A DNA stretch of 32,202 nt, taken from NCBI RefSeq assembly GCF_900491935.1, contig NZ_UEXK01000004.1, positions 2,746,235 to 2,778,436 of the forward strand. The letters run 5' to 3'. The translations under genes were made by a program, and so were the position numbers. The stretch is from Klenkia terrae. GTDB taxonomy: Bacteria > Actinomycetota > Actinomycetes > Mycobacteriales > Geodermatophilaceae. The notes below the pieces were generated by a model that saw only the letters and a program-made list of their open reading frames with translations, made no database searches and was not told the DNA's origin. This document shows positions 10,116 through 16,625 of this stretch, in pieces; position 1 is the stretch's first letter; the number at the start of each line of letters is the position of its first letter.

Positions 10116-10484
10116 GCCCAGCGCCTCAGCAGGCCGGAGCGCGGTCGAGCAGCACCGGGTCGATGTCCCGCTGCCGGCACACCTGCGTACATGCCGTGCG
10201 GCGCGCAGTCGGGAGCTCCGCAGCGGGGTGCCAACGGGTGATTCGGCTCCACCTCCTGGTCGGTCCTGCCGAGAACCCCAGGACCATGGACACCACCGTC
10301 GTCACCCTCATCCCGGCCCTGCTCGCCCCGCTGGCCGGCGTCTGCGCCGCGTTCCCCGGGCAGGGCCGGTGCACCGTCTCGCCGACCACGGCCGCGCTGC
10401 TGGCCCGCGCCGTCCCGACGCCGAGGACGCGCACCGCGGCCTGACAGGATGGACCCGTTGGCGTCCGACGACGACAGGGGTCCC
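10116..10484. other. 369-bp gap with a doubtful small ORF
   Basis: No confident gene is seen. A 52-codon frame at 10286-10444 on the plus strand starts with ATG after an AGGA and has a hydrophobic N-terminus (VTLIPALLAPLAGVCAAF), so a tiny secreted or membrane peptide is possible but weak. The CAGGAT at 10445-10450 may be a -10 box for the UDP-glucose dehydrogenase gene. Nothing else stands out. Confidence 0.35.
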
Positions 10485-11804
10485 ATGAAGCTCTCGGTGA
10501 TCGGCTGCGGCTACCTCGGTGCCGTGCACGCCGCCTCGATGGCGCAGCTCGGCCACGACGTCGTCGGCATCGACACCGACACCGCCAAGGTCGAGCTGCT
10601 CGCGGCCGGCCGGGTGCCCTTCCACGAGCCCGGCTTCGAGGAGCTGCTGCAGTCCTCGCTGGCCTCGGGGCGGTTGCGGTTCTCCCCGGACATGGCGCAG
10701 GCCGCCGGCTCGAAGGTGCACTTCGTCTGCGTCGGCACGCCGCAGAAGCGCGGCGAGTACGCCGCCGACCTGCGCTACGTGGAGTCGGCGACCGAGTCGC
10801 TGATCGAGGTGCTGGCCCCCGGCGAGCTGGTCGTCGGCAAGTCCACCGTCCCGGTCGGGACGGCGGCGCGGCTGGCCGAGCTGGTGACCGGCAAGGCGCC
10901 CGGTGCGCTGCTGGCCTGGAACCCGGAGTTCCTGCGCGAGGGCTTCGCCGTCCAGGACACCCTGCACCCCGACCGGCTGGTCTACGGCCTGCCCGCCGGC
11001 GCCGACGGCGACACCGCCCGGGCGCTGCTGGACGAGGTCTACGCCTCGATCGAGGCCGACGGCACGCCCCAGGTGGTCACCGACTACGCCACCGCAGAGA
11101 TGGTCAAGACCGCGGCGAACTCGTTCCTGGCCACCAAGATCTCCTTCATCAACGCGATGGCCGAGCTGTGCGAGGCCACCGGTGCCGACGTGAAGCAGCT
11201 GGCCGACGCGATCGGCTACGACGACCGGATCGGCCGCAAGTTCCTCAACGCCGGCCTCGGCTTCGGCGGCGGCTGCCTGCCCAAGGACATCCGCGCGTTC
11301 ATGGCCCGGGCCGGGGAGCTGGGCGCCGACCAGGCGCTGACCTTCCTGCGCGAGGTCGACAACATCAACATGCGCCGCCGGATCCGGATGGTCGAGCTGG
11401 CCCGCGAGGTCTGCGACGGTTCGCTGCTGGGCAAGCGGATCGCCGTCCTGGGGGCGGCGTTCAAGCCCGACTCCGACGACATCCGCGACTCCCCGGCGCT
11501 CAACGTCGCCGCCCAGCTCCAGCTGCAGGGCGCCACCGTGCGGGTCACCGACCCGGCGGCCGGGGACAACATCCGCCGGTCCTGGCCGCAGTTGGACGTG
11601 GTGGACTCCGCCGAGGAGGCCGCCGAGCGCGCCGACGCCGTCCTGGTGCTCACCGAGTGGAAGCAGTTCCGCGAGCTCGACCCGGTCGCCTTCGGCCGGG
11701 TCGTGGCGCGCAAGGCCGTGCTGGACGGGCGGCAGGCGCTGGACCGCGACGTGTGGGAGGCCGCGGGCTGGTCCTACCGGGCGTTGGGCCGCCGCGCCGG
11801 CTGA
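10485..11804 (+). CDS. ugd: UDP-glucose 6-dehydrogenase
   Basis: The enzyme oxidises UDP-glucose to UDP-glucuronate with two NAD, giving the acidic sugar often found in exopolysaccharides. The 439-residue protein has the usual three-part layout. An N-terminal NAD domain has the motif GCGYLGAVHA at residues 7-16. The central domain has NPEFLREGFAV and, later, the FGGGCLPKD motif with the catalytic Cys near residue 264. A C-terminal UDP-binding domain contains GAAFKPDSDDIRDSPA. ATG 10485 is chosen over the open frame to 10449 because AGGGG lies just upstream and the Rossmann strand starts at residue 2. A nearly identical ACAGGGG-(A/T)CCC-ATG arrangement precedes the second LCP gene. Confidence 0.96.
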   Translation: MKLSVIGCGYLGAVHAASMAQLGHDVVGIDTDTAKVELLAAGRVPFHEPGFEELLQSSLASGRLRFSPDMAQAAGSKVHFVCVGTPQKRGEYAADLRYVESATESLIEVLAPGELVVGKSTVPVGTAARLAELVTGKAPGALLAWNPEFLREGFAVQDTLHPDRLVYGLPAGADGDTARALLDEVYASIEADGTPQVVTDYATAEMVKTAANSFLATKISFINAMAELCEATGADVKQLADAIGYDDRIGRKFLNAGLGFGGGCLPKDIRAFMARAGELGADQALTFLREVDNINMRRRIRMVELAREVCDGSLLGKRIAVLGAAFKPDSDDIRDSPALNVAAQLQLQGATVRVTDPAAGDNIRRSWPQLDVVDSAEEAAERADAVLVLTEWKQFRELDPVAFGRVVARKAVLDGRQALDRDVWEAAGWSYRALGRRAG

Positions 11805-11839
11805 CCACCGCGTCGGCGCCGCGTCCGGCTGCAACCAGG

Positions 11840-11845
11840 GATACT
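11840..11845 (+). promoter_or_regulatory. Possible -10 box (GATACT) for a leaderless lipoprotein mRNA
   Basis: GATACT ends exactly 6 bases before the GTG at 11852. Transcription starting 7 bases after the box would begin on the start codon itself. No ribosome-binding site is visible. The box deviates from TANNNT in its first base. Confidence 0.35.
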
Positions 11846-11851
11846 GGGCCG

Positions 11852-13003
11852 GTGCTGACCCGCCGGGCCCTGCTGGCCTCCGCCGCCGCGACCGGTCTGG
11901 CCGCCGTGCTCGCCGCGTGCACCCGGGACCCATCCGCCGGCCCGGTGTCCACCCCGGCCCCGTCCGGGCCCGGTCTGCGCGCCGGTGACGAGCGGGAGCA
12001 GCTGCTCGCCGAGGGCGACTACGGCATGGTGAACTTCCCGGACGGGCACACCACCTACGTCGCGACGGACAACGGCTACCGGGTGTGGCTCGCCAGTGGG
12101 CTGGTCTCCGGTGGTGGTGGGAGCACCGTGGCCGTGGACAGCCCCGACCTGGTCCGGTTCCGGCCCGCCGAGCTCGACGGCCGGGACGCGGTCGCCGTCC
12201 TGGCGCCGGTGGGCGGCACGGAAGCCCTCGACAGCGACTACTGCGGCCCCGGATCGGTCTTCCCAGCGGCCGACGGCAGCGGGCTCTGGCTGGTCTACCA
12301 CGGGGAGAACCACACCTTCGCCGGAGTCACGAACGACGGTTCCCCCTACTACGCCACGATCGGCCTTGCCTGGTCGTCCGACGGCGGGCTCACCTGGCAG
12401 CGCCGGGGCGCCGTCATCACCGGACAGGTGCCCCGGGACGACCAGCCGGCACCCCGCGACGTCGTCGGCGCCGGATCGCTGTGCGCACTGGTGGCCGGCG
12501 GGTACGTCTACGTGCTCTACATCGACTGGAACCTGGCTACCCCGGACGAGCTGCACCTGGCGCGGGCCCCGCTCGACGCGGTCGACGACCCGGCGGCCTG
12601 GCAGAAGTGGCACGACGGTGCCTTCTCCACGCCCGGCGACGGCGGGGCCAGCACCGCCGTCGTCACCCGCCCCGGCGACGGTGACGTGACCGTCGTGGCC
12701 GGCGGGCCGTCGCTGAGCTGGAACACCCACCTCGAGCGGTACCTGCTGGTGTTCCAGACCGCTGACGGCTTCTGGTGGACCCACTCGACGACGCTCACCG
12801 ACTGGGCCGAGGCAGTGCAGTTCCTCGGCCTGGACGCGCCCTCGGTCGCCGGCGCGGCCTTCGTGGCCTACGGCACCCTGCTCAGCCCCGGGGCGCCCAA
12901 CGACCAGGTCACCGGGCGGGATTCCTACCTGTACCTCGCCATCAGCGAGGGCGAGGACGACAGCCACTCCCTCTGCCGGATCCCGGTGACGGTCTCCCGC
13001 TAG
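11852..13003 (+). CDS. Secreted lipoprotein with Asp-box, possible glycan-acting beta-propeller
   Basis: The 383-residue product begins MLTRRALLASAAATG and has the lipobox VLAAC near residue 23, so it is exported and lipid-anchored. The twin arginine suggests the Tat route is possible. The mature protein has one clear Asp-box (SSDGGLTW), a motif found in sialidase-type beta-propellers, and repeated blade-like segments such as YVYVLYIDW and YLYLAIS. This suggests a glycoside hydrolase or carbohydrate-binding fold. No catalytic set can be assigned. The open frame reaches back to 11168 inside ugd, but the signal peptide fixes GTG 11852. An IS481 element is inserted directly at its TAG stop codon without changing the protein. 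Confidence 0.75.
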   Translation: MLTRRALLASAAATGLAAVLAACTRDPSAGPVSTPAPSGPGLRAGDEREQLLAEGDYGMVNFPDGHTTYVATDNGYRVWLASGLVSGGGGSTVAVDSPDLVRFRPAELDGRDAVAVLAPVGGTEALDSDYCGPGSVFPAADGSGLWLVYHGENHTFAGVTNDGSPYYATIGLAWSSDGGLTWQRRGAVITGQVPRDDQPAPRDVVGAGSLCALVAGGYVYVLYIDWNLATPDELHLARAPLDAVDDPAAWQKWHDGAFSTPGDGGASTAVVTRPGDGDVTVVAGGPSLSWNTHLERYLLVFQTADGFWWTHSTTLTDWAEAVQFLGLDAPSVAGAAFVAYGTLLSPGAPNDQVTGRDSYLYLAISEGEDDSHSLCRIPVTVSR

Positions 13004-13004
13004 G
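12999..13004. repeat. Left target-site duplication (GCTAGG)
   Basis: It matches 14123-14128 exactly and contains the TAG stop codon of the upstream lipoprotein gene. Confidence 0.9.
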
Positions 13005-14122
13005 TGTACTGACCAGAGACGTTGTTCTCGGGCGTGTGACCACTCGATCTGACTGAGGATCTTGTGGAGGGAGGACCTCCGGACGTGGAGTGGAGCTGCT
13101 GAAGGCACCCATTCCCCGGACTCCGGAGGTCCTCGTGACCCACGCTAACGCCGCTTTGACCCCCAAGCACCGACTGCGACTGGCTCGGGCGGTGGTCGAG
13201 CAGGGCTGGACGCCGGCCTACGCGGCCACGGTGTTCAACGTGTCGGCACCCACGGCCCGCAAGTGGGCCGACCGCTACCTGGTGGGCGGGCCCGCGGCGA
13301 TGGAAGACCGCAGCTCACGACCGCACCACTGCCCGCGCCGCACCCCGGCGCCGGTGGTCCGCAAGATCGTGCACCTGCGGTGGAAGAAGCGCCTGGGCCC
13401 GGTTCAGATCGCCGGCCGGCTGGGGCTGGCGGCTTCCACCGTGCACGCGGTGCTGGTGCGCTGCCGGCTCAACCGGCTTTCCCACGTCGACCGCGCCACC
13501 GGCGAGCCGATCCGCCGCTACGAACACGACCACCCCGGCTCACTGATCCACGTCGATGTGAAGAAGCTGGGCAACATCCCCGACGGCGGCGGTCACCGCT
13601 ACGTCGGCCGCCCACAAGGCGACAAGCACCGCGCCGCCACCCCGGGCAAGCCGAAGAACGCGCACCACAACCCGAAGATGGGCACCGCGTTCGTGCACAC
13701 CGTCATCGACGACCATTCCCGCGTGGCCTACGCCGAGATCCACGACGACGAAACAGCGGCCACCGCCATCGCCGTCCTGCGCAACGCCACCGCCTGGTTC
13801 GCCGCCCGCGGGGTCCCCGTGCAACGGGTCTTGAGCGACAACGGGTCGGCCTACCGCTCGCACGCATGGCGCGAGGCCTGCGCCGAGCTGGGCATCACCC
13901 CCAAGCGCACCCGGCCCTACCGCCCGCAGACCAACGGCAAGATCGAACGCTTCCACCGCACCCTCGCCGACGGCTGGGCCTACGGCCGGATGTTCACCAC
14001 CGAGACCGCACGCCGTAAGGCACTACCGGCCTGGCTACACGAGTACAACCATCACCGGCCCCACACCGCGACCGGATCCCGACCGCCCATCACCCGCCTG
14101 AACAACCTCTCCGGTCAGTACA
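13005..14122 (+). mobile_element. Complete IS481-family insertion sequence
   Basis: The element is 1118 bp and is bounded by 23-bp inverted repeats with two mismatches (13005-13027 and 14100-14122), each beginning TGTACTGACC. A perfect 6-bp direct repeat, GCTAGG, flanks it at 12999-13004 and 14123-14128. This agrees with the NCTAGN target reported for Bordetella IS481. The element carries one transposase gene. It sits between the convergent lipoprotein and flippase genes. Removing it and one duplicate leaves those genes about 12 bases apart, so the insertion looks neutral. The intact ends and gene suggest a fairly recent and possibly still active copy. Confidence 0.93.
13071..13134 (+). promoter_or_regulatory. 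Long-range hairpin covering the transposase ribosome-binding site
   Basis: GAGGACCTCCGGA at 13071-13083 is the exact reverse complement of 13122-13134. The right arm contains the GGAGGT ribosome-binding site (13125-13130) and ends at the base before the GTG start. A transcript that reads in from outside would fold this 13-bp stem and hide the site. Such protection against read-through transcripts is known from other insertion sequences such as IS10 and IS50. That it operates here is inference. Confidence 0.6.
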
Positions 14123-14127
14123 GCTAG
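13135..14127 (+). CDS. IS481-family transposase (DDE)
   Basis: The 330-residue enzyme cuts and joins the ends of its own element. The N-terminus has a helix-turn-helix (YAATVFNVSAPTARKWADRY), and a second winged-helix region has AGRLGLAASTVHAVL. The DDE catalytic core is visible as Asp in HVDVKKLG, Asp in LSDNGSAY and Glu in GKIERFHRTL, with the usual RPHTATG segment near the end. I chose GTG 13135 because of the strong GGAGGT 4 bases upstream. An in-frame GTG at 13090 exists but lacks such a site. The stop TAG at 14125-14127 lies outside the element, in the right target duplication, and the last serine codon straddles the border. The gene is intact. Confidence 0.93.
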   Translation: MTHANAALTPKHRLRLARAVVEQGWTPAYAATVFNVSAPTARKWADRYLVGGPAAMEDRSSRPHHCPRRTPAPVVRKIVHLRWKKRLGPVQIAGRLGLAASTVHAVLVRCRLNRLSHVDRATGEPIRRYEHDHPGSLIHVDVKKLGNIPDGGGHRYVGRPQGDKHRAATPGKPKNAHHNPKMGTAFVHTVIDDHSRVAYAEIHDDETAATAIAVLRNATAWFAARGVPVQRVLSDNGSAYRSHAWREACAELGITPKRTRPYRPQTNGKIERFHRTLADGWAYGRMFTTETARRKALPAWLHEYNHHRPHTATGSRPPITRLNNLSGQYS

Positions 14128-14128
14128 G
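14123..14128. repeat. Right target-site duplication (GCTAGG)
   Basis: It matches 12999-13004 exactly and supplies the TAG stop codon that ends the transposase frame. Confidence 0.9.
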
Positions 14129-14133
14129 CCCGG

Positions 14134-15453
14134 TCAGGCCGGCGTCGTGACCGCGGGGTCCACCCGGGCGGTGCGACGGTCACCCCGGCGGAGCAGCAGC
14201 AGGCTGCCCAGCAGGAGCACCGGCTCACGGCTCAGCGAGGCCCAGGCAGCGCCTGCCGCGCCGAATCGGGCGTCGAGCTGCCAGTGCGCCAGTACGCAGA
14301 CGGTGAGCGCCAGGAACTGGACGGCGGTCAGCCCGTAGGCCTGTCCCCGCGCGACGGCGAGGGCCTGCAGCGGCACCCCGGCGGCCGCGATCGGCAGGGA
14401 GAACAGCAGGATCTGGAAAGCGATCGGGTCCGCCCCGATCCGCTCGCCGAAGAACAGCGGGGCCCACCACCCCGCGCTGACCGACAGCACCAGCGCGGCG
14501 GCGAGCAGCAGCCCCAGGCCCATGCCGGAAGACAGCAGCGCAGCGCGGCGGGAGTTGTCGATGCCCTTCTCGCGGGTGGCACCGAGCCGGGCCGCCGGGA
14601 TGACCCCCGCGGCCAGCAGCACCAGCACCCCGCCGAGCGCGTTCTGCAGCTGCGACGCCGGGGCGTAGAGACCGGCCACGGTCAGCCCGGCGAACACGGT
14701 GACCAGCAGGGCGTCGGCCCGGTTGACCACCACGTTGATCAGACTGTTGAGGGTGTGCGGCGCCGACGCCCGGATCGCCAGCAGCATCCGCGCCCGCCGG
14801 TCACCGGGCCGGTTCGCGAACGCGGTCCGGACGCCGTCCAGCCGGGTGCGGACCCGCCACAGCGAGTACAGCAGGGTCACGACCTCGGCCCCGGCCAGGC
14901 CGCCCAGGAGGAACGGCACGAGCACCGCGCCGTCCAGCACGAAGGCCAGCGGTGCGGCCACGCACAGCACCAGGCGGCCGGCGAACAGGGCCTCGCTGAC
15001 CACCCGGAACTCGTGCAGGTAGCCCAGCACGGCCTGGACGAACAGCGAGGCGGAGAAGGCCAGCCCGCCCAGCGCGACCAGCACGACCTCGGCCACCGAG
15101 AGGTCCCACAGCAGCTGGGCCACCACGACCCACCCCACGGCCACGCCCCCGGCCAGCCACAGCCGCAGGGTCACCAGCGAGGCCACGGCCGCCGAGCCGC
15201 TCTCGCGCCCGGCGAGCTGCTGCTGGATGTAGGTGCTGGTGCCGGCGTCGGCCGCGGCCGCCACCAGGAGCATCGCGCCCTGCAGGGTGAACAGGAACCC
15301 GAGCTCGCTGACGCCCAGCACGCGGCTGGCCACGACGGTGAACACCACCATGGCGACCTTGGTGACCAGCTGGGAGACCGCGTTCCAGCCCGCGGCCTTC
15401 GCCAGCAGGGCGACGACCGGGTTCTGCAGCCGGCTGGCCACCCATTGCCTCAC
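14134..15453 (-). CDS. Wzx-type polysaccharide flippase (MOP superfamily)
   Basis: The 439-residue protein is almost entirely made of hydrophobic helices, about 12 in number, which is the normal number for Wzx/RfbX flippases. These move lipid-linked repeat units across the membrane. The N-terminal part (AGWNAVSQLVTKVAMVVFTVVASRVLG) resembles the family's first helices and GLYAPASQLQNALGG its centre. The C-terminus is short and basic. GTG 15453 overlaps the stop of the upstream glycosyltransferase by 4 bases (GTGA), so translation is coupled. It is the last gene of the operon that also holds a GT4 enzyme and LCP copy 2. Its 3' end lies six bases beyond the right target duplication of the IS element. 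Confidence 0.88.
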   Translation of the reverse strand: MRQWVASRLQNPVVALLAKAAGWNAVSQLVTKVAMVVFTVVASRVLGVSELGFLFTLQGAMLLVAAAADAGTSTYIQQQLAGRESGSAAVASLVTLRLWLAGGVAVGWVVVAQLLWDLSVAEVVLVALGGLAFSASLFVQAVLGYLHEFRVVSEALFAGRLVLCVAAPLAFVLDGAVLVPFLLGGLAGAEVVTLLYSLWRVRTRLDGVRTAFANRPGDRRARMLLAIRASAPHTLNSLINVVVNRADALLVTVFAGLTVAGLYAPASQLQNALGGVLVLLAAGVIPAARLGATREKGIDNSRRAALLSSGMGLGLLLAAALVLSVSAGWWAPLFFGERIGADPIAFQILLFSLPIAAAGVPLQALAVARGQAYGLTAVQFLALTVCVLAHWQLDARFGAAGAAWASLSREPVLLLGSLLLLRRGDRRTARVDPAVTTPA

Positions 15454-16625
15454 GGCCGGGCCAGCAGCTGCAGGTAGCGCCGGGCCTGCCCCGCGGGGCT
15501 GAAGCGATCCTCGGCCCGTCGGCGCGCGGCGCGACCCATCTGCGCCCAGGCGGGTCGCTGGTCCAGGACCGTCGCCAGCTGGTCGGCCAGCGCGGCGGTG
15601 TCGAGGGTGTCCATCAGCCAGCCGGTCTCGCCGTCCACGACCGTCTCCGACGGCCCGCCGCTGCTGGTCGCGACCACCGGCCGCCCGGCGCGCATCGCCT
15701 CGACCACGCTGAGCCCGAACGACTCCACCCCGCGGTTGACGCAGATGGCCAGGGAGGCGGTGGCGAGGAACGTCTCCGGGTGGTCGCTGGCCGGCAGCAG
15801 CCGGATCCGGTCGCGGGCCGGGCTCGTGGCGACCAGCGCCCGGACCCGGTCCTGGAACACCGGGTCGTGGGAGCCGCCGACCAGGTCGAGCGCGAGGTCG
15901 GCCAACCGGGGGTCAGCCAGTGCCTCCACCAGGAGGTCCTGCGCCTTGTCTTCGGCGATCCGGGCGATGCATACCGCGCGCAGCGGTGCGTCGACGAGGT
16001 CGGGCACGGTGGCGAAGACGTCGGCGGCCGACAGGTGCATCACGTCGGCCGCGGGACGGCCGCCGTGCACGCCGAGGGAGGACAGCGTCGACCGGCTGTT
16101 GGCCAGCACGTGCACGTCCAGCACCCGGGCCAGCAGGCGGTAGGCCAGCCGGGCGGGCGCGCTGTCCCGGACCGGGCGGGTCAGCTCCCACACGCAGGTC
16201 GCCCCGAGCAACCGGGCGGTGATCGCCCCGGCCGGCACCAGGGCGGGGGACACCACGTGCAGGTGCGTCACCCCGGCCAGGGCCGGGTGCCGGCGGGCGA
16301 CCCGGACGAAGGAGACCATCCACGCCAGCAACCGGACGGCGTCCCGGAGCGCCCCGGGCCCGCGGCGGGATATGTAGGGCGGGTCGGGCAGGTCCAGCAC
16401 CGTCAGCGGCAACCCCGCTGCGGCCACCTCCTCGGAGGTCTCGCCGGCCCGGGCGCTGAGGCAGGTGACGGTGGCCCCGAGCCCGCGGACCTCGGTCATC
16501 AGGTTCACCACGCTGCGGGCGACGCCGTAGCCCTCGCCCCCGGCGACCACCCAGGCGATCGAGAGCCGGTCCACCGGCAGGTCGGCGGGCGCCGGAGCGG
16601 TGCCGCGGTCAGTTGACGACGTCAC
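15450..16625 (-). CDS. Glycosyltransferase family 4
   Basis: A 391-residue GT-B enzyme that adds a sugar from a nucleotide donor to the growing lipid-linked unit on the cytoplasmic side. The N-terminal domain has the glycine-rich loop GGEGYGVARSVV, which contacts the acceptor side. The C-terminal domain has ARIAEDKAQDLLVEAL and the donor-binding motif GVESFGLSVVEAMRAGRPVVAT with the EX7E pattern. GTG 16625 lies inside the end of the upstream LCP gene (17-bp overlap). The 3' end overlaps the flippase start by 4 bases. Donor and linkage cannot be deduced. Confidence 0.92.
   Translation of the reverse strand: MTSSTDRGTAPAPADLPVDRLSIAWVVAGGEGYGVARSVVNLMTEVRGLGATVTCLSARAGETSEEVAAAGLPLTVLDLPDPPYISRRGPGALRDAVRLLAWMVSFVRVARRHPALAGVTHLHVVSPALVPAGAITARLLGATCVWELTRPVRDSAPARLAYRLLARVLDVHVLANSRSTLSSLGVHGGRPAADVMHLSAADVFATVPDLVDAPLRAVCIARIAEDKAQDLLVEALADPRLADLALDLVGGSHDPVFQDRVRALVATSPARDRIRLLPASDHPETFLATASLAICVNRGVESFGLSVVEAMRAGRPVVATSSGGPSETVVDGETGWLMDTLDTAALADQLATVLDQRPAWAQMGRAARRRAEDRFSPAGQARRYLQLLARP

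Follow-up and report, generated by a model that had tools for sequence, protein, structure and literature searches.

The window analysed here, a stretch of 32,202 nucleotides from the genome of Klenkia terrae, carries an IS481-family insertion sequence between a gene that we refer to as the host gene and a convergent neighbour. The features on which the following description relies are, in order along the window:

11852–13003, forward strand: host gene, with an N-terminus that looks lipoprotein-like by eye; the TAG of the left target duplication is its stop
12999–13004, unstranded: left target duplication GCTAGG, containing the host-gene stop TAG (13001–13003)
13005–14122, forward strand: IS481-family insertion sequence, TGT...ACA, 1118 bp, recognized by its sequence and its profile match
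13005–13024, unstranded: left terminal inverted repeat, 18 of 20 bases equal to the right end
13071–13083, forward strand: 5' arm of the leader hairpin, a perfect 13-bp inverted repeat with 13122–13134 (folding z -3.59; covariation among relatives)
13122–13134, forward strand: 3' arm of the leader hairpin, holding GGAGG (13125–13129) and adjoining GTG 13135
13135–14127, forward strand: transposase gene, with GTG 13135 as its likely start and its stop (14125–14127) outside the element
14103–14122, unstranded: right terminal inverted repeat, 18 of 20 bases equal to the left one, doubling as the end of the coding sequence
14123–14128, unstranded: right target duplication GCTAGG, containing the transposase stop TAG (14125–14127)
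14134–15453, reverse strand: convergent neighbour gene, ended by a separate TGA (14134–14136) and matching Polysacc_synt with 44.5 bits (cut-off 28.2)

Elements of the IS481 family have one transposase frame that takes up most of about 1.1 kb between TGT...ACA inverted repeats, and are expected to transpose by copy-paste. The window's element has this layout, with a single frame filling most of the 1118 bp between such repeats. The transposase reaches 349.1 bits against the NCBIfam IS481 model NF033577 (cut-off 224), which bears out the family assignment of the original prediction, and contains the domains rve (67.3 bits, cut-off 32.6) and LZ_Tnp_IS481 (33.1 bits, cut-off 22.2). Three residues, D156, D250 and E286 (numbered from GTG 13090), are invariant across 16 aligned sequences, the window's included, and are presumably the DDE residues of the transposase. 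No second close copy was found in the same 4.8-Mb high-GC genome. The surrounding DNA forms a polysaccharide cluster (10449–16625) with a UDP-glucose/GDP-mannose dehydrogenase, a polysaccharide biosynthesis protein and a group 1 glycosyltransferase.

Direct reading of the two target copies, 12999–13004 and 14123–14128, gives identical GCTAGG on both flanks of the element, in the order ...CCC GCTAGG, then TGTACTGACC...GGTCAGTACA, then GCTAGG CCC... This is a six-base NCTAGN duplication of the IS481 type, in agreement with the target proposed at the outset, and published passages report such duplications for IS481, ISLxc2 and TnRErm46. The interval originally assigned to the element, 12999–14128, is correct for the element plus both duplications, but not for the element alone, which spans 13005–14122.

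The transposase frame is open from GTG 13090 and likely starts at GTG 13135, five bases 3' of GGAGG. It meets no stop within the element, and the target copy supplies one. The final codon is AGC, in which the A is the last base of the element and GC belongs to the target, and TAG follows directly. Since the first base of the target varies (G 57, C 35, T 22 and A 12 in 126 rows of the survey described below), the last residue of such transposases is Ser, Thr, Asn or Ile. As CTAG is a palindrome, the stop would be provided in either orientation of insertion, and the relaxed targets TTAG and CTAA would likewise yield TAG or TAA. Annotation should allow for transposases that end beyond their element and whose last residue is determined by the target.

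On the other side of the element, the host gene stops at the left TAG; its product resembles DUF4185 weakly (36.4 bits, under the Pfam cut-off of 39.5). Among 112 family genomes, the window's own included, a single other one (G078) has the upstream gene at E 1e-20. This relative (L059), from the same genus, is 72% identical and stops at the same codon, but with TGA. Because its stop occupies the same codon, the host protein is of native length, and the claim that the insertion spared the end of the host gene holds. The G078 locus was also considered as an empty site and rejected, as it reads GCCTGA there with different DNA behind, and shows the native gene end only. A 26-base pattern of the joined flanks had 0 matches in the genome contigs searched, and a search for the downstream gene at E 1e-40 found nothing in the genus's 8 other genomes. 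Taken together, we regard it as very probable that an apparently intact IS481 element entered a GCTAGG located right where the host gene ends, and that the duplicated TAGs now serve both genes.

To place this copy among others, we surveyed 149 loci, all of them samples of best matches: 57 loci of the family, those of the window's genome among them and including 20 places taken from a capped match list, 80 named genome loci (the best 80 of 579) and 12 viral contigs. Two loci had no protein match (L007, L056) and L001 was excluded as the same copy as L008, leaving 146 rows. From these we dropped 7 transposases stopping before residue 325, 5 loci that showed no right end, 4 whose flank was missing or given as N, and 1 duplicate. 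In this best-match sample, NCTAGN adjoins 121 of the 129 distinct right ends whose flank can be read, and the target supplies the transposase stop in 124. Both figures agree with the original prediction, according to which the window's frame exits through the last base of the element to end at the TAG of the right duplication, and other copies should be flanked by NCTAGN and end in the same way.

The remaining right flanks are TTAG (3), CTAA (2) or something else (3 of 129). TTAG and CTAA represent a single relaxed target read on opposite strands; each stops the frame, giving a stop in 5 of the 8 right ends without CTAG. Two TTAG cases, L121 and L165, show identical six bases on both sides; the sides differ in L112 and L088. 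A published passage likewise places an insertion of Bordetella IS481a in CCTAAC (PMC3053399). The five exceptions to the target-supplied stop comprise L057, frameshifted before its end, and L169, which has an internal TGA and the right flank TCTAGG, both flanked by CTAG, together with L120, L155 and L162, whose right flanks contain no stop. An unrelated flank combined with a longer frame, the pattern that the original prediction named as evidence against itself, is confined to these last three right ends out of 129. One of them, L120, retains CCTAGC at its left, which suggests that its right flank was rearranged later.

The six bases to the left and right of the element agree at 5–6 of 6 positions in 99 of 147 rows, and at all six in 87 (the window's copy is counted twice in these rows). 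This agreement in other copies excludes chance as the source of the GCTAGG pair in the window. The window's genome also contains a second IS481 element (L002–L006; 1129 bp in four of them), which is distant from the window's element and has an inverted repeat like that printed for ISRe46. Its frame ends on the target TAG in all five loci, three of which have identical six bases on both sides. The survey as a whole shows the borrowed stop to be general, including four loci in three proteobacterial genera, and the relaxed targets encountered keep a stop.

The double use of TAG is accordingly neither peculiar to this insertion nor previously unnoticed, as the original prediction had supposed: besides being general in the survey, it has already been described. 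For TnRErm46/ISRe46 of Rhodococcus equi (2019), the passages available to us describe both TAGs as in the window's element (PMC6794481). In those passages TnRErm46 shares with the window's element the IS481 family, the NCTAGN duplication and a right TAG that ends the transposase, but it is a transposon of 6.9 kb that carries passenger genes and has a different inverted repeat (PMC6794481); by the look of the printed repeat, it stands nearer to the second element, L002–L006, than to the window's. For ISLxc2 and ISLxx4 of Leifsonia xyli (2008), the relevant passages place the stop codon inside the host insertion site NCTAGN, and these same passages contain no statement on host-gene sparing (PMC2516522). 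There, ISLxc2 resembles the window's element in family and length (1105 bp), and differs in a reported in-frame stop inside the gene (PMC2516522).

The closest named relative among the plasmid matches listed is the cmx-bearing IS5564, also of the IS481 family and about 69% identical in protein sequence, which, unlike the window's element, travels with a passenger gene. IS870 of Agrobacterium belongs to another family, IS5. According to the title of its 1993 paper, the large ORF requires the CTAG target for its stop codon, and to this extent IS870 resembles the window's element. The borrowed stop is already published, and the window's copy adds one member of a widespread kind.

In 6 of the 8 plasmid relatives, the frame runs past the ACA end and terminates at the TAG of the CTAG immediately beyond it. 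Four of them are from Proteobacteria (Burkholderia ISBcen26, Rhizorhabdus and two Rhizobium) and two from Actinobacteria; one of these six, L198, has no CTAG at its left. The other two, IS1122 of Clavibacter (L196) and a Rhodococcus pyridinivorans element (L200), terminate at an internal TGA of their own, located 12 bp before the right end, and have six-base NCTAGN duplications. IS1122 is otherwise like the window's element in its family, its NCTAGN duplication and a 13-bp hairpin over the ribosome-binding site.

These two relatives speak against the earlier claim, which saw the targeting of NCTAGN as a means of providing a stop. Since they retain the target despite an internal stop, target choice is separable from stop supply. 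The broader idea that NCTAGN targeting was selected for supplying the transposase stop and sparing the host gene appears quite unlikely to us. Stop supply is near-universal in the sample (124 of 129), and off-consensus targets still stop the frame in 5 of 8 right ends without CTAG, as this idea would have it; yet the NCTAGN duplications are unchanged in IS1122 and L200 with their internal TGA, L169 combines an internal TGA with TCTAGG at its right, and survivorship predicts the same picture, given that any copy with a run-on frame would be lost. In the reading that we prefer, the enzyme would favour CTAG for its own reasons, and the absent internal stop would be a saving common to most of the lineages examined.

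We then asked how often such insertions meet the end of a gene. CTAG is rare in the window's genome: for 400 kb, trinucleotide counts predict 341 occurrences, and 62 are present. Of these 62, 12 lie at called stops, 11 inside called genes and 39 elsewhere, the in-gene count varying with the caller (11 of 62 vs 2 of 58). Conversely, 13 of 30 called TAG stops lie within CTAG (window's genome; L060–L079). For the comparison, 90 insertion sites with CTAG on both sides, 5–6 of 6 agreement and 400 nt of flank were kept. As controls for the window's genome and its family served 121 CTAGs, taken from the same 400 kb and from 20 stretches of family genomes.

With a simple custom gene caller based on codon usage, and in a sample made up of surviving copies with control rates of 6 to 26%, a gene stop coincides with 21 of the 33 insertions from the window's genome and its family, compared with 30 of 121 control CTAGs (Fisher p 5e-5). 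Excluding in-gene sites leaves 21 of 32 against 30 of 113 (p 1e-4). The other insertions are on a stop in 24 of 57 cases; of the 116 control CTAGs taken from the DNA flanking these insertions, 7 are. Three score thresholds agree. With a cruder caller, 44 of the 90 fall on stops (22 of 33, with 8 of 121 controls, and 22 of 57, with 14 of 58 controls), so that the control rates are sample-dependent.

The frequency of insertions at stop codons would follow from the scarcity of CTAG together with the little harm done by a copy settled on a stop, or from a preference for such sites, which we propose as alternatives. We lean slightly towards survivorship alone as the source of the excess, with harmful insertions lost and an enzyme that sees only CTAG. 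Among the 90 insertions, the gene concerned lies to the left in 19 and to the right in 17, with both in 9, and this near equality is expected for a symmetric target. Moreover, a wider target consensus than NCTAGN was considered and set aside: over 11 positions outwards, base frequencies differ only mildly between the 90 insertions and 128 controls, with A, for example, less frequent at insertions three bases away from CTAG (0.04 vs 0.23). Against survivorship alone, the excess persists in comparison with CTAGs outside genes (the 21 of 32 vs 30 of 113 given above), where many insertions should be harmless.

Transposase leaders that hide the ribosome-binding site are known from elements of the IS10/IS50 type. 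The leader of the window's element shows two traits of such leaders, with the ribosome-binding site in the 3' arm of the hairpin and a pairing that is kept through two-sided changes. A Shine-Dalgarno word occurs in the 3' arm of 58 of 74 leaders; the remaining ones have no start motif (9), no stem (2) or a stem without this word (5). In an alignment of 64 of 65 leaders (L002, whose leader is unrelated, was excluded), 59 have a perfect stem of at least 9 bp near the start; after shuffling the upstream part, the mean over 20 rounds is 0.65 and the highest count 2. The ten core pairs are paired in 95.5% of cells, against 39–63% in slid versions. Two-sided changes are present in 53 cells and at 5 of the 10 pairs, and the covariation score exceeds 500 of 500 shuffles, which do not remove relatedness. 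Further pair types are not above shuffles (9 vs 10.0), and the consensus structure of the aligned leaders is energetically weak (-1.13 kcal/mol).

Stems are also present in plasmid relatives, with 13 bp in IS1122, 11 bp in L200, 10 bp in L198 and 7 bp of different letters in L199. L193 and L194 have a different 7-bp stem that includes the ATG itself, while L195 and L197, 2 of the 8 plasmid relatives, have no 7-bp stem near the start. A search of Rfam over 12900–14250 gave no match up to E 1, and a literature search confined to one library returned no earlier report of the hairpin. The loop motif GTGGAGTGGAGCTG is conserved in the leaders. A leader peptide encoded in the hairpin loop was considered and rejected, as its frame is not kept in the alignment.

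The inverted repeat could instead be a DNA site for the transposase or a host protein and not an RNA lock on translation, which we consider unlikely. The arms do form an inverted repeat at the DNA level too, the loop carries the conserved GTGGAGTGGAGCTG, and promoter and terminator scans found none, including no promoter for a lock-free message, within the limited set of promoter types that the promoter scan covers. The letters, however, change on both arms with the pairing kept, as the 53 cells at 5 pairs and the contrast with the slid versions indicate, the 3' arm contains the ribosome-binding site, and the stem of L193 and L194 takes in the ATG. For the RNA hairpin, we infer that messages running in from the host gene would fold and be poorly translated; in this manner, the hairpin would keep such read-in messages from making much transposase.

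The gene-end excess and the leader hairpin go beyond the known borrowed stop. Tentatively, and with some doubt, they can be combined into a coordinated gene-end niche of IS481-type elements in Actinobacteria, which would consist of a preference for stop-codon CTAGs, a spared host stop, a borrowed stop of the element's own, and a hairpin silencing read-in messages. The excess and the hairpin would help explain a low-harm life in gene-dense, high-GC genomes.

Two groups of loci stood out in the survey for other reasons. The same element with near-identical flanks is present in three family genomes (L020, L021, L022), which may reflect an ancient insertion that they share, a mobile piece of larger size, or contamination. 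Elements of 2436–2438 bp with passenger DNA (L131, L132, L133, L143, L148) were found in Burkholderia, Tessaracoccus, Brachybacterium, Kocuria and a Microthrixaceae MAG, and are perhaps IS5564/cmx-like.
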